64,000 nt of DNA from Fluviicola taffensis DSM 16823 (GTDB taxonomy: Bacteria > Bacteroidota > Bacteroidia > Flavobacteriales_D > Crocinitomicaceae): assembly GCF_000194605.1 (NCBI RefSeq), contig NC_015321.1:3534001-3598000 (forward strand). Reading direction: 5' to 3'. Made by a program: the position numbers and the translations under genes. Below, one piece after another: positions 453-7,593 of this stretch (within the stretch, counting starts at the first letter, position 1; every line of letters begins with the position of its first letter). Under the pieces are notes generated by a model. It searched no databases, had not been told where the DNA came from, and saw only the letters and a program-made list of their open reading frames with translations.

Positions 453-481
453 TGATCTAGATGAACTGTAAGTGAGATTTG

Positions 482-537
482 TGTAACAATCGCGTATTAA
501 TCTGTAATGAATGATGGGTTGTTGTTGGTCACCTTTG
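482..537 (+). promoter_or_regulatory. Stress-regulon promoter, copy A (csbD-like gene)
   Basis: TGTAAC at 482 and TGTAAT at 503 form a direct repeat with 21-bp period. Then 24 bases lead to CTTTG at 533-537, inside CACCTTTG, a near match to the Bacteroidota -7 element TAnnTTTG. Exactly the same spacing recurs at five other places in the first 6 kb. The second half-site lies where a -33 element would be, which suggests activator dependence (inference). Confidence 0.7.
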
Positions 538-573
538 TTGACAAGAAAGAGTATTCATCTTAAAACAAACATC

Positions 574-807
574 ATGTCAACAGAAAAAAACACAAATCCA
601 AGTTCAGAGAACAAAACAGGGTCATTTAAAATTTCAGGTGATTGGGCAAAACAATCTACTCAATTGAAAGAAAAATTCACTCAATTAACAGATTCAGATT
701 TGAAATTTGAACCAGGTAAAGAAAATGAATTACTTACTCGTGTTGAAACGAGATTGAACAAAAAACGCGATGAGGTAATTAACATCATTAACAAATGTGA
801 AGTTTAA
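574..807 (+). CDS. CsbD-like general stress protein
   Basis: A 77-aa hydrophilic protein. The core shows the CsbD pattern: a W in GDWAKQ, then LKEKFTQLTDSDL, then a G-K-E-x-E-L-L block and a C-terminal helix ending in VINIINK. CsbD-like proteins are small, abundant stress proteins of unknown biochemical function. The frame opens upstream at 511, but that start would lie inside the promoter element ending at 537, so ATG 574 is chosen. It is monocistronic between two terminators and sits under stress-promoter copy A. Confidence 0.8.
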   Translation: MSTEKNTNPSSENKTGSFKISGDWAKQSTQLKEKFTQLTDSDLKFEPGKENELLTRVETRLNKKRDEVINIINKCEV

Positions 808-874
808 TCTTCATTTTTGATTAGATCAGAAGTTTAGTAGTATTTGCTAATAGAGTTCTGTTTTAGTGTACAGA

Positions 875-909
875 AAAAGCGTAACCAAGGCATAAGGTTG
901 CGCTTTTTT
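875..909 (+). terminator. Rho-independent terminator after the csbD-like gene
   Basis: The stem AAAAGCGTAACC pairs with GGTTGCGCTTTT (one G-T wobble) and is followed by a T run at about 903-909. Confidence 0.75.
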
Positions 910-988
910 GCTTTGTATCATCTTCAAATCTATTGAACGTTTTTAGCTTTTGAACTCTTTTAACTTGAATTACAACTAGTGTGATATA

Positions 989-1044
989 TGTAACAATTAA
1001 AGCAACTTGTGTAATACATTGAAATAACAAGAAGTTCATCTTTG
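989..1044 (+). promoter_or_regulatory. Stress-regulon promoter, copy B (lipoprotein gene)
   Basis: TGTAAC at 989, TGTAAT at 1010 (21-bp period), then N24 and CTTTG at 1040-1044 within CATCTTTG. It is identical in spacing to copies A and C-F. A short inverted repeat, GTGAA/TTCAC, follows in the presumed 5' UTR near 1050 and is also seen after copies C and E. Confidence 0.7.
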
Positions 1045-1083
1045 TAGCGTGAAAATGAATTCACTATTAATACTCAGTAAGTC

Positions 1084-1527
1084 ATGAAAAAATCAATTTT
1101 ATCCATTATTACTTTTACAGTTTTTAGTTTTCTAATAACTAGTTGTACGTCTCGTCCAGACTCAGGAAAAGTTGAAAATGCAGCAGAAGATGTTCAAGAT
1201 GCAAAAGATGATTTGGATAAAGCAAATAGCGAATATGCAGAAGAAGTGATGAATTATCGTGCAGAAGTGCAACAGAGTATAGATGAGAACAAGCAGTTAG
1301 TTGCTGAATTGAAGAACGAAAAAGCATTAGCGAAGAAAGAGGAAGCACTTGCTAGAAATGAGAAAATTGCTGCAATCGAAAAACGAAACAGAGAATTAGA
1401 ATTGCGTATGACCGATTATAAAGGTGATAGCAAAGAAAACTGGAAAGAGTTTAAAAGAGAATTCAACAATGACATGAATGAATTAGGAAAATCGTTCAAA
1501 GATCTTGGAAAAGATAATGTAAAATAA
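1084..1527 (+). CDS. Coiled-coil lipoprotein, paralogue of the gene at 6023
   Basis: 147 aa. Residues 1-20 form a lipoprotein signal peptide ending in the lipobox LITSC, with Cys21 as the lipidation site. The rest is a long charged helix predicted to form a coiled coil (heptads of E/K with A/L), ending in a conserved tail with SKENWKEFKREFNNDM and GKDNVK. The protein at 6023 shares the same layout and tail, so the two are paralogues under the same promoter type. The likely location is the periplasmic face of a membrane. The function is unknown; the context suggests envelope stress. Confidence 0.8.
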   Translation: MKKSILSIITFTVFSFLITSCTSRPDSGKVENAAEDVQDAKDDLDKANSEYAEEVMNYRAEVQQSIDENKQLVAELKNEKALAKKEEALARNEKIAAIEKRNRELELRMTDYKGDSKENWKEFKREFNNDMNELGKSFKDLGKDNVK

Positions 1528-1612
1528 ATGTGAAAAACAGTTTTCAGAATGAAGATTTTCTATTGCTCAAATCAATAGTAGAATAATTGTTCTGAGAATT
1601 GGAGAGTGGAGG

Positions 1613-1642
1613 AAGGAGTAATGTAAGAGTTACTCCTTTTTT
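1613..1642 (+). terminator. Terminator after the first coiled-coil lipoprotein gene
   Basis: AAGGAGTAA pairs with TTACTCCTT (9 bp, 8-nt loop) and is followed by a T run. Confidence 0.65.
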
Positions 1643-1726
1643 AGTAATAAAAATTTTAATGCTAACAGAAAAATTGAGATTTAGAACCAACAAGTGATCA
1701 GATAAAGGATAACTAAAAAAAAAAAG

Positions 1727-2035
1727 ATGGGAAATTCAATCAGTAAAAGTGAATTAAATTGGTTTCAGTTATTTTTGAATCGACTCAAAATAATGTCTAG
1801 AAGCAAGCGTAAAAGAGCAGAAGTTCATCAGCAAGAAACGATGAAAATCATGGATCGAATTTCAGAAATTAAAAACAAACATCCAGAATTGATTAAGTAC
1901 TTAAATGAAATGCCACAATTTCCTACAAGTGCCAATGATTCTGAAATTCGATTGAAAGATTTGATGCAGTATCACAATTCTTTGTTGGAGCTATTGGAGA
2001 AGTATGAATTGGAATCGAGCACTCATTCTGAATAA
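1727..2035 (+). CDS. Small basic hypothetical protein
   Basis: 102 aa from an ATG preceded by an A-rich stretch. It has no signal peptide or membrane segment. It carries a basic patch (SRSKRKRAEVH), then helices with EIKNKHPELIKYLNEM and a Leu-rich C-terminus (LLELLEKYELE). I do not recognise the family. It lies between two stress-promoter genes but has no copy of the stress promoter directly upstream; it may be read through from 1084. Confidence 0.55.
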   Translation: MGNSISKSELNWFQLFLNRLKIMSRSKRKRAEVHQQETMKIMDRISEIKNKHPELIKYLNEMPQFPTSANDSEIRLKDLMQYHNSLLELLEKYELESSTHSE

Positions 2036-2075
2036 ATCGAATCACGAGTAAAAGAAGGCTTAAAACAGTGATTCA

Positions 2076-2131
2076 TGTAACAAATCGAATCTATTGTGTA
2101 ATGCTTTCAAGAGGAAATGAGTGCAACTTTG
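2076..2131 (+). promoter_or_regulatory. Stress-regulon promoter, copy C (outer-membrane protein gene)
   Basis: TGTAAC at 2076, TGTAAT at 2097 (21-bp period), N24, then CTTTG at 2127-2131 in CAACTTTG. It is followed by a GTGAAA/TTTCAC hairpin around 2137-2152 in the leader. Confidence 0.7.
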
Positions 2132-2167
2132 TTGAGTGAAAATTCTTTCACAAATAAATTCATTTAA

Positions 2168-2809
2168 ATGAATAAAATACTATTTTTTGCAGCAATATTC
2201 GGTGGAATTTCAGCTAATGTTTCTGCACAAGAAGATTCAAAATGGGATCGTCGCGAGAAGTTTACAATTGGTGTGAAAGCAGGTGCAAATTTATCAAACG
2301 TGTGGGATTCAGAAGGTGAAGATTTTGATGCGGATGCAAAATTAGGATTCGCAGGAGGTGTTTTTGTGGGGATTCCAATTGGGAAATTTATTGGAGTGCA
2401 ACCTGAGATTCTCTTTTCTCAAAAAGGATTTAGAGCATCAGGAACATTACTTGGAACCTCTTATTCTTATACAAAAACAACCAGTTACTTGGATGTGCCG
2501 TTGCTATTTCAAGTAAAACCATTGAGCTTCCTAACGATGCTTGTTGGCCCTCAGTTTGCTTTTCAGGTAAGTGAAAGAAACGTATACACGTTTGGAAGTA
2601 ATAGCTCTGCACAGCAAGAAGAGTTTGAAAACGATAATATTCGTAAAAACACATTGGGTATTAATGTGGGATTTGATATTAACATTTCTCATGTAGTTGT
2701 TTCTGGAAGAGCCTGTTGGGATCTTCAAAATAACAGAGGTGATGGAACTTCGACAACTCCTCGCTATAGAAATCAATTTGTGCAACTTACAATTGGATTT
2801 AAGCTTTAA
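2168..2809 (+). CDS. Outer-membrane beta-barrel (porin-family) protein
   Basis: 213 aa with a Sec signal peptide (residues 1-20, cut before QED). The pattern G-V-K-A-G-A-N-L-S near residues 36-44 is typical of the Bacteroidota OMP_b-brl_2 family. Alternating strands follow, with PEILFSQKG, YLDVPLLFQVKP and a C-terminal strand ending in FKL. The predicted fold is an 8-10-stranded outer-membrane barrel. It is the first gene behind stress promoter C and probably shares a transcript with the tiny membrane protein at 2834. Confidence 0.8.
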   Translation: MNKILFFAAIFGGISANVSAQEDSKWDRREKFTIGVKAGANLSNVWDSEGEDFDADAKLGFAGGVFVGIPIGKFIGVQPEILFSQKGFRASGTLLGTSYSYTKTTSYLDVPLLFQVKPLSFLTMLVGPQFAFQVSERNVYTFGSNSSAQQEEFENDNIRKNTLGINVGFDINISHVVVSGRACWDLQNNRGDGTSTTPRYRNQFVQLTIGFKL

Positions 2810-2833
2810 TAGCCCTTTTAACCCTGAGTAAAG

Positions 2834-2995
2834 GTGAAAGGTATACTAAGCACATTGGCCATTCTTATAGTTATTGGTTGGGCAATTGGGTATTTCCGAT
2901 ATCATGTGGAAGGTTTCTTCTTTCACCTCACGTTAGTGGTTGCATTGGTGTCACTTTTTTTACAATTTCTTCCAACCAAAATTACTGGCAAATGA
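2834..2995 (+). CDS. lmo0937-type small membrane protein (GTG start)
   Basis: 53 aa, GTG start, TGA at 2993-2995. The N-terminus ILSTLAILIVIGWAIGYF followed by H, then a second hydrophobic stretch, matches the ~50-aa lmo0937 family: two short membrane segments around an aromatic/His turn. It closely resembles the proteins at 3199 and 6645, which supports both reality and start. It follows the barrel gene by 24 bases and probably shares its promoter. The function is unknown; homologues are associated with stress. Confidence 0.7.
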   Translation: MKGILSTLAILIVIGWAIGYFRYHVEGFFFHLTLVVALVSLFLQFLPTKITGK

Positions 2996-3116
2996 TTGCG
3001 CTTTCAGAAGCTTTTGATGAGGTTGGAAGTTGTTTAGTAGCCACTTAAAATTTTCAGTAATACATTCAATTCGTGTTTAGTTATTCAGGAAGAATCATTC
3101 TGAAATCTGTGATTTA

Positions 3117-3172
3117 TGTAACTTATTACGGTCAATCTGTAATACTTGCGATGTAAAATAATTACAACTTTA
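3117..3172 (+). promoter_or_regulatory. Stress-regulon promoter, copy D (lmo0937-type and ytxH-like genes)
   Basis: TGTAAC at 3117, TGTAAT at 3138 (21-bp period), N24, then CTTTA at 3168-3172 (CAACTTTA, the only one of copies A-E lacking the final G). Confidence 0.65.
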
Positions 3173-3198
3173 AATTTAGAATATTAAATCAGAGTAGC

Positions 3199-3351
3199 AT
3201 GAGTGGTATATTAAACATACTGATAGTTGTATTGGTAGTGGGATGGTTGATCGGATTCTTTGCATTCCAAGTTGGTGGATTGCTTCATTTGCTTTTAGGG
3301 CTTGCATTAATTGCACTTGTTTTACGTCTTCTTCCAGTTAATCGAAAGTAA
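3199..3351 (+). CDS. lmo0937-type small membrane protein
   Basis: 50 aa from ATG 3199 to TAA 3351. Two hydrophobic segments (about residues 4-23 and 27-45) are joined by AFQVGG, and the C-terminus is basic (PVNRK). It is a paralogue of the proteins at 2834 and 6645: the motif GW-x-IG is shared and each ends in a Pro-basic tail. It sits directly behind stress promoter D and ahead of the YtxH gene. Confidence 0.75.
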   Translation: MSGILNILIVVLVVGWLIGFFAFQVGGLLHLLLGLALIALVLRLLPVNRK

Positions 3352-3421
3352 TACAAGGTAACTCCTCCTTTCAAATTAGGACTTCATCTTTTTAATTTTA
3401 GTCATAAAAAAAATAGATAAA

Positions 3422-3649
3422 ATGGTTGAAAAAGACAAAAATAACCAGAAAAAGACGGGTTCAAGCGCTACTGGAAAAGTAGTGGGAGCTTTGGTTGCGG
3501 GAGCGGCTGTTGGAGTGGCTGTTGGAATTTTGACTGCGCCCAAAAAGGGAAGTAAAACCAGAGCTAAGATTTTGGATGATGCGAAGGATTTGGCAAGCAC
3601 GCTAAAGACAAAAGCAGCAGAATTTAAGGAAAAAGGGAACAAGGAATAA
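3422..3649 (+). CDS. YtxH domain protein
   Basis: 75 aa. A lysine-rich N-terminus is followed by one glycine/alanine-rich membrane segment (about residues 18-38). Then comes TAPKKGSKTRAKI, the YtxH signature, and a charged helix. YtxH proteins are small membrane-anchored stress proteins; in Bacillus the family belongs to the general stress response. It lies 70 bases after the lmo0937-type gene and before a strong terminator, so it is probably the last gene of the copy D transcript. Confidence 0.8.
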   Translation: MVEKDKNNQKKTGSSATGKVVGALVAGAAVGVAVGILTAPKKGSKTRAKILDDAKDLASTLKTKAAEFKEKGNKE

Positions 3650-3682
3650 CCTTTTCCAGGAGTTAAAACGTTAAGACATAGA

Positions 3683-3720
3683 CCATTCAACAATACGTAT
3701 TGTTGAATGGTTTTGCTTTT
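3683..3720 (+). terminator. Terminator: 28-bp perfect palindrome plus T-rich tail
   Basis: CCATTCAACAATAC at 3683-3696 is followed at once by its exact reverse complement (3697-3710) and a T-rich tail. It ends the ytxH-like transcript. Confidence 0.85.
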
Positions 3721-3839
3721 GGTTTACTTTTCAATGTGATTGGATTTAATTTATTGAAAATCAATTCAAAACAATCAGTAAAATAGCTAGGAACGGCGGT
3801 AAATTGTCGTAACTTCACACGTATTCAATAAGAACCAAT

Positions 3840-4409
3840 TTGAAAATTTATATAAAGTATATGGTCAGTATCCGCTGCAAAAAATTGGTGGGTACAGAAC
3901 TGAAAAAGTTGGGGGTAGTGATGCCTAAAATTAATCAGGGCATGGTTGAATTTCAAGAAGAATTATCCACAGAACAGAAATCGCAATTTAAGGAACGCAT
4001 TTTGAAATTTGGATTTGAAGTTTTGGACCCTGCCAATAGTCAGTTGTTGGATCGGATTTCAGCAATGATTGTGGAGTTGATCTATAAGCATACGGAAATG
4101 CCAAGAGGGGATTATCCAGTCTATTTGATTGATAAATTGAAATTCGATTATTCGGAGATCACTAATTTGTTTTCTGAAGTTCACGGGATTAATTTACCTC
4201 AATACATTACGATACAGCAAGTGGAGCGTATCAAGGAAATGCTTTTGTATGAAGATTTGAAAGTAAAGGAGATTGCTGTATTGCTTCATTATCGGAATGG
4301 GGCACAGTTAACAAGAACATTTAAAAAGATTACAGGCTTGACTCCCTTTTATTTCAAAAAACTAAAGGAAAAACGGTTGGAAGTTCGGACAGAAAATAAA
4401 TCTGAATGA
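3840..4409 (+). CDS. AraC-family regulator with HMA-like N-terminal domain (paralogue 1, TTG start)
   Basis: 189 aa. Residues 1-75 look like a ferredoxin-like, heavy-metal-associated fold in which the usual MxCxxC loop reads MVSIRC, so the first Cys is Ser. Residues ~95-180 are an AraC double helix-turn-helix, with IKEMLLYEDLKVKEIAVLLHY as first helices and the typical TFKKITGLTPFYFKK end. The TTG start is supported by alignment: the paralogue at 7036 begins with ATG at the equivalent codon and all three begin M-K-[IL]-x-I-K-Y-M-V-S. It probably regulates transcription in response to an unknown, perhaps intracellular, signal. Confidence 0.8.
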   Translation: MKIYIKYMVSIRCKKLVGTELKKLGVVMPKINQGMVEFQEELSTEQKSQFKERILKFGFEVLDPANSQLLDRISAMIVELIYKHTEMPRGDYPVYLIDKLKFDYSEITNLFSEVHGINLPQYITIQQVERIKEMLLYEDLKVKEIAVLLHYRNGAQLTRTFKKITGLTPFYFKKLKEKRLEVRTENKSE

Positions 4410-4456
4410 AAAACGTGCTGGTGTATTTTCATCAGTTACTTTAAAGATAAATCATT

Positions 4457-4816
4457 ATGAAAAGCACTACAGACGGTAAAGAATTAGAAAAAGCAAAATC
4501 TCATATTATCGTCGAAATTATTCACTATGTACCCAATGCTGTTTTGAGTAAAACCATTCTTAAAAAGACTACAGGGAATGTGACTGTTTCTTCATTTGAT
4601 GCAGGTGAAGAGTTGGAAGAAAAGCATTCACCATTCGATACCTATGTGCAAATAATTGATGGTTCTGCTGAACTTATTATTGATGACAGTCCATTCACAT
4701 TGAAACTAGGGGAGGGAATTATTATTCCAGCTCACACAAGACACAAATTCAATGCCAACGAACAGTTCAAAATGATCAGTACCACTATAAAAAGCGGTTA
4801 TGAAAATGAAAACTGA
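4457..4816 (+). CDS. Cupin domain protein
   Basis: 119 aa, no signal peptide. A single cupin barrel spans about residues 35-112. Motif 1 is degenerate (EKHSPFDTYVQIIDGSAEL, with one His and no HxH), while motif 2 keeps GEGIIIPAHTRHKF with two His. Metal binding is therefore uncertain. It lies between two AraC paralogues on the same strand, 47 bases after the first and 60 before the second. A role in small-molecule binding or stress response is inference. Confidence 0.75.
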   Translation: MKSTTDGKELEKAKSHIIVEIIHYVPNAVLSKTILKKTTGNVTVSSFDAGEELEEKHSPFDTYVQIIDGSAELIIDDSPFTLKLGEGIIIPAHTRHKFNANEQFKMISTTIKSGYENEN

Positions 4817-4876
4817 GACTGACTTTTGCATATTTCTTGATTACTAATTATTGATTGTTATTAAATCCCTTATGAT

Positions 4877-5437
4877 TTGAAATTGTACATCAAATACATG
4901 GTAAGTCTTCGCTGTAAAATGGTGGTGAAGGATGAATTGGCTATGTTGGGACTGCATACTATCGCTGTGGATCTGGGAATGGTTGAAATCGTGGAAGAAA
5001 TTTCAATAGAAGATCGTGAGGCCTTGAGAGTGAGTTTGTTGAGGTCTGGATTGGAGCTTCTGGAAGATAAAAGGAGTATTTTAATCGAGCAGATAAAAGG
5101 GGTTATTGTTGAAATGATCCATTACTCCGATAAAACTCCGAAAGTGAATTACTCGGAATATATCAGTGAGAAGCTAAAGTACGATTACACGTATCTTTCC
5201 AACGTATTTTCAGAAGTGAAAGGGATTACAATCCAACAATTCATCATTATCAATAAGATCGAACGGGTCAAGGAACTTTTGCTCTATGATGAATTAAATC
5301 TGACTGAAATATCCTACAAACTCAATTACAGCAGTGTTGCACATTTATCCAATCAATTCAAGAAAATCACAGGACTTTCTCCTTCATTTTACAAACAAAT
5401 GAAACAGAAAAGAAACAGTAATTTAGAGAATATCTAA
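4877..5437 (+). CDS. AraC-family regulator with HMA-like N-terminal domain (paralogue 2, TTG start)
   Basis: 186 aa. It has the same architecture as the gene at 3840: an N-terminal ferredoxin-like domain with MVSLRC in place of MxCxxC, a linker with MIHYSDKTPKVNYSEYISEKL, and an AraC HTH with TEISYKLNYSSVAHLSNQF and KITGLSPSFYK. It is closest to the paralogue at 7036. The TTG start is supported by alignment with that ATG. Between these two copies lie the dps remnant and stress promoters E and F. Confidence 0.8.
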   Translation: MKLYIKYMVSLRCKMVVKDELAMLGLHTIAVDLGMVEIVEEISIEDREALRVSLLRSGLELLEDKRSILIEQIKGVIVEMIHYSDKTPKVNYSEYISEKLKYDYTYLSNVFSEVKGITIQQFIIINKIERVKELLLYDELNLTEISYKLNYSSVAHLSNQFKKITGLSPSFYKQMKQKRNSNLENI

Positions 5438-5483
5438 TTAGATGAGTTTGGAATAAGAATTCTTGTTTCGAACTCACATTAAC

Positions 5484-5757
5484 TTAAGAATTTAGATGTG
5501 ATTCAATTTCTTCCTGTGAAAGCAAGTAGAAAATTTCTTCCTCTAAGGCTGATTTTTTAATCTGATTTTCGATTGTTAGCCGAGCATTAAATAACTCATA
5601 GTCGATTCAGCACCTTGATTGAGATTCACATTCTCACGCTCTAGGCCATCGTAACATCCACCAGTGCAAGGATTTTGGATAATTCCGTTGCAACAGCTTC
5701 GCTATTTTTTGCGGTTAATCCAATACTGATTTTCATTTCGTCGTTATTGACTTCCAT
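5484..5757 (-). pseudogene. Fusion scar: 5' end of dps joined to the 3' end of a glycosyltransferase/glycosidase-like gene
   Basis: Reading from ATG at 5757 on the minus strand, about 31 codons match the start of a Dps protein (MKISIGLTAKNSEAVATELS, then KILA). At about 5665 the sequence continues, in another frame, as NPCTGGCYDGLERENVNLNQ followed by GAESTMSYLM. After a further frameshift it reads ARLTIENQIKKSALEEE to a stop at 5484. I recall the TGGCYDGL...NLNQGAEST motif from the C-terminus of Bacteroidota carbohydrate-active enzymes. A deletion appears to have joined two minus-strand genes. Nothing functional is expected from it. Confidence 0.65.
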
Positions 5758-5788
5758 TTTCTTGTTTTTTTAACGATTTACAATAGTT

Positions 5789-5844
5789 GAAAATTACAGA
5801 TCTTTTAACCGCTGATTGTTATACAATTAATCGGGTTTATTACA
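5789..5844 (-). promoter_or_regulatory. Degenerate stress-regulon promoter, copy F (dps remnant)
   Basis: On the minus strand TGTAAT starts at 5844 and TATAAC at 5823 (21-bp period, one mismatch), followed by N24 and TTTTC where CTTTG is expected. GTGA precedes it, as in B-D. It stands in front of the dps fragment and is the least conserved copy, as expected for a dead gene. Confidence 0.5.
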
Positions 5845-5926
5845 CTTTTCACAGATTTATAAAAAGATTTAAAATGCTTTTTTATAGGTATTTGACTTCT
5901 TTTTTTTAGTTGAAACCTGTAATTTA

Positions 5927-5982
5927 TGTAATAATTCCTCGAATTTTTGTAAAACATTTTTAATTCTTGAAGCACATCTTTG
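5927..5982 (+). promoter_or_regulatory. Stress-regulon promoter, copy E (second lipoprotein gene)
   Basis: TGTAAT at 5927, TGTAAA at 5948 (21-bp period), N24, CTTTG at 5978-5982 in CATCTTTG. It is followed by the GTGGAAATGAATTCAC leader repeat also seen (as GTGAAAATGAATTCAC) after copy B. Confidence 0.65.
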
Positions 5983-6022: not shown

Positions 6023-6472
6023 ATGAAAAAGAAAATAATTTACCGAATCCTTTTTTCGCTATTAGTTGTTATTGTAGCGAGTTGTACGGAATCTGAATCA
6101 GACACAGATAAGATTGACAAGGCCGTTGAAGATGTGCATGAAGCAAAGCAGGACTTGGACCGAAAAACAGCTGAATTAGCAGTTGAAGTAGAAGCTTATC
6201 GAGAATCTATGCAAAGAAATCTTGAAAAAAACAGAATGGAAATTGCTAGATTGAAAGATGAGAAGATTCAATCAGCACAAGCCAATGTAATCCGAGTTAG
6301 AAATGAGAAAATTGCTCAATTGGAGCAACGCAATGATGAATTGGAAGCTCGTATGAAAGAATTCAATAGTGATTCTAAAGAAAATTGGGAAGCATTTAAA
6401 AGAGAATTCAAAAATGATATGGATGAGCTTGGTGATGCGTTCCGAGATATCGGAAAAGACAATGTAAAGTAA
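6023..6472 (+). CDS. Coiled-coil lipoprotein, paralogue of the gene at 1084
   Basis: 149 aa. The lipoprotein signal ends in the lipobox IVASC. A long charged coiled-coil helix follows with ARLKDEKIQSAQAN and KIAQLEQRNDELEARM. The tail SKENWEAFKREFKNDMDELG plus IGKDNVK is nearly the same as in the protein at 1084. Promoter and leader are also shared, so gene plus control region were duplicated together. The probable role is an envelope stress lipoprotein; the mechanism is unknown. Confidence 0.8.
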   Translation: MKKKIIYRILFSLLVVIVASCTESESDTDKIDKAVEDVHEAKQDLDRKTAELAVEVEAYRESMQRNLEKNRMEIARLKDEKIQSAQANVIRVRNEKIAQLEQRNDELEARMKEFNSDSKENWEAFKREFKNDMDELGDAFRDIGKDNVK

Positions 6473-6644: not shown

Positions 6645-6797
6645 ATGAGAGCGATATTAAGCACGATAGCAATTATAGTTATTATAGGATGGGCAATTGG
6701 ATATTTTGGATACCATACAGGAGGTCTTTTCCATTTGATTCTAGTAATCGCATTGATAGCAATTGTTATTCAGTTAATTCCAGGTAGGAGAAGCTAG
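6645..6797 (+). CDS. lmo0937-type small membrane protein
   Basis: 50 aa from ATG 6645 to TAG 6797. Two hydrophobic segments flank GYHTGGLFH, and the C-terminus is PGRRS. It is very similar to the proteins at 2834 and 3199. It lies downstream of the second lipoprotein gene with only a weak hairpin between them, so it probably belongs to the copy E transcript. Too short for routine gene calling, but the family match is clear. Confidence 0.75.
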   Translation: MRAILSTIAIIVIIGWAIGYFGYHTGGLFHLILVIALIAIVIQLIPGRRS

Positions 6798-7035: not shown

Positions 7036-7593
7036 ATGAAACTATTTATCAAATACATGGTCAGTCAACGTTGCAAGATATTTGTAAAAGAAGAACTTGT
7101 AAAGTTAGGTTTACGAACAACTAAAATCGATTTAGGAGTGGTTGAAATCAGAGAGAGTCTTTCTGATGAAACTAGAGAAACATTGCGAGTTAATTTATTG
7201 AATTCGGGTCTAGAGCTTCTGGAGGATAAAACAAGTATTCTAATCGAACGCATCAAAAATGTGGTGATTGAAATGGTTCATTACCTCGAGGAAATTCCTG
7301 GAATGAATTATTCCGAATACATCAGTGATAAGCTTCAATCTAATTACACCTATTTGTCCAATACGTTTTCCAAAGAACAGGGTATTACATTACAAGATTA
7401 TATTATTCGAAACAAAATTGAGCGTGCAAAGGAACTGATGCTTTATGATGAATTGAATTTGACAGAAATCTCTTATAAACTAAACTATAGTAGCGTGGCT
7501 CACTTTTCCAATCAATTCAAAAAAATAACAGGCTTTACACCGTCTAGTTACAAGCAGTTGGAATACAAAAGAAGCGCTTTGGAAAGTATTTAG
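7036..7593 (+). CDS. AraC-family regulator with HMA-like N-terminal domain (paralogue 3)
   Basis: 185 aa with an ATG start. The N-terminal ferredoxin-like domain has MVSQRC. The C-terminal AraC HTH reads LNLTEISYKLNYSSVAHFSN then KKITGFTPSSYK. It is a close paralogue of the genes at 3840 and 4877. Its stop overlaps the stop of the convergent aldehyde dehydrogenase by 3 bases. Three such regulators around a set of promoters with 21-bp direct repeats make them candidate regulators of that set (inference). Confidence 0.85.
   Translation: MKLFIKYMVSQRCKIFVKEELVKLGLRTTKIDLGVVEIRESLSDETRETLRVNLLNSGLELLEDKTSILIERIKNVVIEMVHYLEEIPGMNYSEYISDKLQSNYTYLSNTFSKEQGITLQDYIIRNKIERAKELMLYDELNLTEISYKLNYSSVAHFSNQFKKITGFTPSSYKQLEYKRSALESI

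Follow-up and report, generated by a model that had tools for sequence, protein, structure and literature searches.

A conserved two-half-site promoter element in Fluviicola taffensis and other Bacteroidota, and an AraC-type protein as its probable activator

On contig NC_015321.1 of Fluviicola taffensis DSM 16823, a window of 64,000 nucleotides (positions 3,534,001 to 3,598,000, the whole stretch analysed here) contains several unrelated genes preceded by promoters of one layout, TGTAA(C/T)-N15-TGTAAT-N24-CTTTG, which raises the question of what protein reads these promoters and under what circumstances. A preliminary description, made from the letters alone, had taken six such sites to define a small stress regulon with its own activator. 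That a regulon exists is to our minds nearly certain, and the idea of a dedicated activator is strongly supported by conservation of the sites, their linkage to one subfamily of AraC-type genes and recurring targets (CsbD, YtxH, Dps, BON and Usp); the regulon is, however, neither small nor local, with up to 12–13 sites at E ≤ 1e-3 in some genomes. The reading that we favour, at a probability of roughly 0.8, is that a class II activator of the AraC type, sister to a copper sensor, runs a regulon resembling general stress regulons, its signal being left open.

Promoter architecture and its conservation

The pattern was searched with dinucleotide shuffles and the reversed pattern as controls. It is present exactly at window positions 482, 989 and 2076, with no match in 100 dinucleotide shuffles, and with one mismatch each at 3117 (CTTTA instead of CTTTG) and 5927 (second half-site TGTAAA). 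At up to one mismatch these five are the only matches in the 4.63-Mb genome, all confined to one 5.5-kb cluster, and the reversed control gave none. A gapless alignment of 49 sites from this and related genomes, obtained from 57 matches with at most two mismatches after five were removed by eye and then three more, reads GnGAWTTA-TGTAAY-N15-TGTAAYR-N21-[C/G]AnCTTTG. Strongly conserved among the 49 sites are also several bases that the search pattern had not specified: G at -8 and at -6, A at -5 and, in the -7 box, the initial [C/G]A. The spacing is equally constrained: when 99 combinations were compared in 60 loci, N15/N24 gave 33 matches, N15/N25 gave two and the remaining 97 together gave eight, the absolute number being inflated by loci that had been fetched for having the pattern. 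At 43 of the 51 sites of the order set, the -7 box is followed after 22–60 bp by the start of the chosen open reading frame (ORF).

Two profiles were built from these sites, R1 from all 49 and the held-out profile R2 from 16 sites of other genera only, and R2 ranks the five window sites first to fifth in the genome (E 1.1e-9 to 1.2e-3). All five operator-promoters are on the plus strand. The first (474..537; GAGATTTG TGTAAC N15 TGTAAT N21 CACCTTTG) has an E value of 8.3e-11 with R1 and 1.3e-5 with R2; the second (981..1044; GTGATATA TGTAAC N15 TGTAAT N21 CATCTTTG) and third (2068..2131; GTGATTCA TGTAAC N15 TGTAAT N21 CAACTTTG) are likewise exact, with R2 E values of 1.5e-9 and 1.1e-9 respectively. 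The fourth (3109..3172; GTGATTTA TGTAAC N15 TGTAAT N21 CAACTTTA; R2 E 3.7e-6) and fifth (5919..5982; GTAATTTA TGTAAT N15 TGTAAA N21 CATCTTTG; R2 E 0.0012) are those with one mismatch. The sixth site, listed as degenerate, had also been credited with both spacings, a claim that holds for the other five. On the minus strand at 5789..5852 (start 5844) it reads GTGAAAAG TGTAAT N15 TATAAC N21 TAATTTTC, has no CTTTG element and is matched by R1 at E 0.009 over model positions 1–52 only, so that all six sites share the half-site period of 21 bp and only five the whole element. Site 6 faces what had been described as a dead dps gene, of which a remnant is indeed present (5641..5757, minus strand; tblastn E 2e-5 with the Dps of locus L216) with just the first 24 codons recognisable. 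Both half-sites are kept and the -7 box is lost; the decay of the promoter and that of the gene seem to have gone hand in hand.

A scan of relatives, as the preliminary description had proposed, shows that the element recurs in other genera and in other orders. Among 249 genomes of the order, 58 contain R1 matches at E ≤ 0.01, and among 247 genomes of the phylum, 45 contain them at E ≤ 0.001. In a further collection of named loci (78 of 80 picked by AraC similarity, two Fluviicola loci being excluded), which includes Empedobacter, Chryseobacterium, Dyadobacter, Algoriphagus, Aquimarina, Chitinophaga, Bacteroidales and a Melioribacteraceae metagenome-assembled genome, there were 170 R1 matches at E ≤ 0.1 across 1.1 Mb; the site analysis of these loci excluded three matches that were short and partial despite E values below 1e-3.

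Across the phylum the -7 box begins with C or G, and not with T: of the best 124 of 150 aligned sites, 121 rows are ungapped and 111 of these show it, which bears out the initial remark that its first base departs from the usual T. The main text of PMC9723704 gives the main-sigma promoter of Bacteroidota as TAnnTTTG and places the -7 octamer of SM-type promoters in F. psychrophilum at -12 to -5. The present box shares the TTTG end and probably that position with the promoter given there, and differs from it in its first base and in having a half-site for the -33 box (PMC9723704, main text). If the octamer lies as in F. psychrophilum, the two half-sites span roughly -39 to -34 (proximal) and -60 to -55 (distal). 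The proximal half-site would then replace the -33 box and, given a -7 box that is also off consensus ([C/G]AnCTTTG versus TAnnTTTG), efficient initiation by the main sigma factor should require an activator beside it, as in class II activation.

Other matches in the genome are weaker. At three mismatches the search is noisy, with 127 pattern matches against 69 control matches genome-wide. An identical 56-base stretch that matches at this level at C1:268894, 655434, 675414, 1527512 and 3082748 is, by its five-fold recurrence, a repeated sequence and no regulon member. In locus L278 (C1:547000-554000), a weak site at 551593-551659 on the minus strand (R2 E 0.037) precedes a pair of genes for a lipoprotein and a DUF2383-like protein, and another at 549383 on the plus strand (R2 E 0.10) lies upstream of a DUF5670-like gene, which suggests a possible second stress locus; both are under any safe threshold and are outranked by a site at 3152164 (R2 E 0.0089) that has no known target family behind it.

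An AraC-type gene family linked to the sites

One family of AraC-type proteins accompanies the element; the window has three of its genes, and the genome has a fourth at another place. In other genomes, 9 of 12 exact matches to the raw pattern lie within 6 kb of a gene of this family (expected 0.14), as do 22 of 83 with up to one mismatch (expected 0.40), and in the phylum scan at least 48 of 119 R1 matches do so (expected 0.80). These counts are fairer than the order-wide figure for R1, 64 of 133 sites within 5 kb of a regulator gene (expected 0.94), which is inflated because R1 was trained largely on regulator-linked sites. Across the phylum the AraC gene is present in at least 42 of 44 motif genomes and in at least 76 of 202 others (Fisher 1.5e-13, uncorrected for kinship). 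Ranked by falling identity to the second window paralogue, the AraC genes with a site within 6 kb number 18/20, 10/13, 7/24, 9/27 and 1/13, a trend that is partly inflated by profile training. The same paralogue is, among those of the window, the closest to regulators that abut operators elsewhere. The preliminary description had named all three local AraC proteins as candidates, and two of them fall in the linked subfamily; paralogue 2 or 3 would most likely be the protein that binds here.

The arrangement of site and gene is often intimate. In 42 of the 78 named loci the site begins 8–81 bp past the last AraC codon, in 27 of them exactly 8 bp past it, and in 27 of 78 the operator overlaps the regulator's stop codon. 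When 30 candidate loci were read again, 26 passed a strict check, the stop codon within the GnGA box being TGA in 21 and TAA in five. Sites that follow no AraC gene, including those of the window, carry the same GnGA box, which is therefore part of the operator; the GTGA box may belong to the distal half-site. The regulator itself is the ORF behind the site in 9 of 207 cases. At G084:C79:11275-11820 (locus L127), in a draft genome, an AraC match with seven internal stops adjoins a good site (R1 E 2.9e-10) and looks like a decayed regulator gene.

Paralogue 2 (4877..5437, plus strand) contains an AraC-type DNA-binding domain, with 57.5 bits for Pfam HTH_18 (E 1.7e-15; cut-off 33.6) and 47.7 bits for HTH_AraC (cut-off 26.6). 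Its AlphaFold model (mean predicted local distance difference test score 88.6) joins this domain to a ferredoxin-like N-domain with strands and helices in the order b-a-b-b-a-b. In Foldseek, AraC-type domains rank first, and the N-domain finds the copper chaperones Atx1 (2xmv) and GolB, with a template modelling score by target of 0.71 and an E value of only about 0.05; no Pfam HMA family matches paralogue 2 at E ≤ 1. Cys13 is invariant in 32 of 32 homologues, and residue 10, the position of the first ligand in MxCxxC, is Ser in 29 and Cys in three. The window proteins carry MxSxxC (MVSLRC in paralogue 2) in place of the canonical HMA metal site.

This residue marks a division of the family. 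Among 194 distinct family proteins in 181 loci, nearly all chosen by AraC similarity, a few by motif and none by copA, 46 are of the MxCxxC type and 135 of the MxSxxC type, 13 being of other or unread types. CopA is encoded within 3 kb of 29 of the 46 and of none of the 135, and CsbD within 8 kb of none of the 46 and of 57 of the 135 (Fisher 5.6e-22 and 1.5e-9 respectively, uncorrected for kinship). A tree of 180 of the 194 proteins, from a quick search with midpoint root, separates the two types with three changes, versus 41 when labels were shuffled. The stress-linked and copper-linked branches differ at Y7/N7, S10/C10, K14/I14 and L59/F59 in the N-domain and at K115/E115 and Q120/E120 in the DNA-binding part. 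A recognisable site lies 7–16 bp past the stop of roughly half of the copper-type genes, with the same N15 and N21, a [C/G]AnCTTTG-like box and half-sites such as CATAAC or TACAAC; behind the stop of the remaining copper-type genes no site was seen. The two branches are alike in domain layout, operator geometry, -7 box and the place of the site just past the stop, and unlike in that copper-linked proteins keep both HMA cysteines, often have CopA as a neighbour and have other half-sites.

The fourth paralogue of F. taffensis itself (C1:4254233-4254793, in the minus-strand locus L280, C1:4248997-4254793) reads MVCNRC and lies directly upstream of genes for a copper P-type ATPase, two small HMA-type proteins and a multicopper-oxidase-like protein, all named by eye; just past its stop is a variant site, TACAAA-N15-GGTAAC-N21-CACCTTTG.

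Well-known class II promoters of the AraC/XylS family include those with AraC at araI1-I2 and those of MarA/SoxS. Like such activators, the protein proposed here would combine an AraC-type DNA-binding domain with two direct half-sites 21 bp apart, the proximal one at the -35/-33 region; it differs in having an Atx1/HMA-like sensor domain, compared with the cupin-type arm of AraC, in serving a regulon of small stress-type genes and in acting at a Bacteroidota -7 box. We consider it very probable that this AraC-HMA-like protein is the activator of the regulon. Its sister would be the MxCxxC protein encoded next to the copper ATPase, whose operator has matching geometry; in the stress branch, Ser takes the position of the first putative metal ligand.

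Target families, signal and competing explanations

What the activator would control was judged from 207 ORFs behind sites, of which 150 belong to 15 recurrent families by counts with profiles that were seeded from the same 207 ORFs. CsbD-like proteins lead with 39, followed by a coiled-coil lipoprotein (17), ice-binding proteins (13), a second lipoprotein family (11), a 38-residue basic protein (11), the barrel (10), DUF5670 (9), AraC (9), OmpA/PD40 (8), BON (5), cupin (5), a further secreted family (5), a family with the motif IWMDHxxAH (4), YtxH (2) and DUF2383 (2). The recurrent families cover 47 of the 51 order-set ORFs, 80 of the 116 from named loci and 23 of the 40 at regulator-distant sites. 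Seven named-loci sites and four further sites have no downstream ORF and stand outside the 207; set A5 comprises 113 of 117 ORF references from the named loci. Single examples supported by Pfam are ferritin/Dps, Usp, Ice_binding, BON, DUF2383, OsmC and DUF892, the genes for the last two beginning 241 and 264 bp behind their sites, for which reason they are less certain targets than the others.

The 38-residue, very basic protein (KEKRAAKAAKRKEKR) lies behind 11 named-loci sites (L233, L207, L194, L226, L225, L202, L199, L222 and others), and a small lipoprotein family with the sequence CKKDYTCEC behind 11 regulator-distant sites of the order (L241, L244, L250, L256, L262 and L265).

Several of the target families are SigB or RpoS targets in other bacteria; neither SigB nor RpoS is known from Bacteroidota. 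The regulons of SigB in Bacillus and Listeria and of RpoS in E. coli share with the present one CsbD/YjbJ, YtxH, Dps, BON/OsmY-like and Usp proteins, possibly also OsmC and YciF-like proteins. The present regulon is unlike them in that its defining feature is an activator operator joined to a main-sigma-like -7 box, as opposed to an alternative sigma factor, and in that it includes ice-binding, OmpA/PD40 and small unknown families. Its targets would be small membrane, envelope and protective proteins such as general stress regulons contain in other phyla, and by this gene content a broad stress role is the more probable one. We lean slightly, and no further than that, towards the fuller proposal of a phylum-wide general-stress regulon under a repurposed copper sensor and not a sigma factor, in which an Atx1-AraC fusion would have lost one metal ligand and kept its operator geometry, often with the operator across its own stop codon.

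A narrower signal (metal, thiol or envelope stress) acting through the same AraC protein is the most serious competitor, tentative as it is. The likeness of the N-domain to copper chaperones, the one Cys found in all 32 homologues, the position of the sister branch next to copA and the several envelope proteins among the targets all speak for it, whereas the absence of CopA from within 3 kb of any of the 135 MxSxxC genes, and single targets such as Dps, Usp, BON and ice-binding proteins, suggest a broader signal.

The favoured reading must also be weighed against the facts that fit it poorly. In the order-wide scan the nearest regulator gene is over 10 kb away for 63 of 133 R1 sites and, among the matches listed, 71 of 119 phylum sites are more than 6 kb from an AraC gene; eight motif genomes of the order and, among the matches listed, two of the phylum gave no AraC match at E 1e-15. 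Conversely, at least 76 phylum genomes with the AraC family have no site at E 1e-3, many of them probably of the copper type. None of the regulator genes of the window has a site in it or next to it, 57 of the 207 ORFs behind sites fall outside the recurrent families, and R2 is not wholly independent of the window pattern, its 16 sites having been chosen with at most two mismatches to it. The distance of about half of the sites from any AraC gene, together with the ten motif genomes that gave no AraC match among the matches listed, would fit another reader of the motif, be it LytTR, another response regulator or an alternative sigma factor, with the AraC gene as a frequent neighbour or a member of the regulon; LytTR sites, too, are direct repeats that recur at close to 21 bp. 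We regard such a reader as unlikely, and one of the LytTR type as unnecessary, given that linkage, as measured for the AraC family, is 20–60 times that expected by chance for one AraC subfamily, that operators overlap AraC stop codons and sites precede AraC genes, and that a variant operator of the same geometry stands behind copper-type AraC genes; a sigma factor, moreover, would leave two half-sites at about -37 and -58 unexplained. That the window promoters are alike merely through local duplication of genes and promoters is hardly credible, for although the window's two lipoprotein genes are paralogous, as are its three DUF5670 genes, unrelated genes carry the element, its boxes are constant where the spacers vary and recur in other genera and orders, and the held-out profile R2 contradicts it.

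An activator of the AraC type that binds two direct half-sites through such a layout would, with its operator and target list, be testable in many species at once and help to place many small 'hypothetical' genes. It would bear on how Bacteroidota organise their general stress response, and would be a clear case of one promoter layout shared by a metal-linked activator and its stress-linked sister. In the open-access literature searched we found no description of this regulator, operator or regulon, and the main text of PMC9723704 mentions neither CsbD nor AraC. AraC activators and stress regulons are known kinds; what appears to be new is their combination, how widely it occurs in the phylum, and the sister branch linked to copper.

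Genes of the window

The genes behind the five sites largely have the identities first proposed. Starting 36 bp behind site 1, the gene at 574..807 (plus strand, as are all genes of this section) encodes a CsbD/YjbJ-like protein of 77 amino acids. On its own this protein scores far under the Pfam CsbD cut-off (12.8 versus 40 bits, E 0.11), and its assignment is supported instead by a profile of 20 homologues that matches YjbJ (1ryk, E 3.5e-7) and PA4738 (1yww, E 1.7e-6). Site 2 is followed after 39 bp by a gene for a coiled-coil lipoprotein of 147 amino acids (1084..1527), with a match to the NCBIfam sll1863 stress family (E 4.3e-7) under the cut-off (30 versus 35 bits). An outer-membrane beta-barrel protein of 213 amino acids is encoded 36 bp behind site 3 (2168..2809; Pfam OMP_b-brl_2, E 3.8e-22), and a DUF5670/lmo0937-family membrane protein next to it (2834..2995; Pfam E 7.1e-8, NCBIfam E 2e-11) is possibly read through from the same site. 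A second protein of this family starts 26 bp behind site 4 (3199..3351; Pfam E 1.7e-10), and the YtxH-like gene that follows (3422..3649; Pfam YtxH, E 3.3e-14) probably shares its transcript. The barrel, DUF5670/lmo0937 and YtxH assignments all pass their family cut-offs. Site 5 precedes, by 40 bp, a lipoprotein gene (6023..6472; 149 amino acids) paralogous to that at 1084..1527, with a third DUF5670/lmo0937-family gene behind it (6645..6797; NCBIfam E 1.2e-15).

The regulator genes lie among these. Paralogue 1 (3840..4409; MVSIRC) is divergent, with 44% identity to paralogue 2, and between the two is a gene for a small cupin (4457..4816; Pfam Cupin_2, E 7.2e-7), whose relatives are those found behind sites in other genomes (5 of 207). 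Paralogue 3 (7036..7593; MVSQRC) has 70% identity to paralogue 2.

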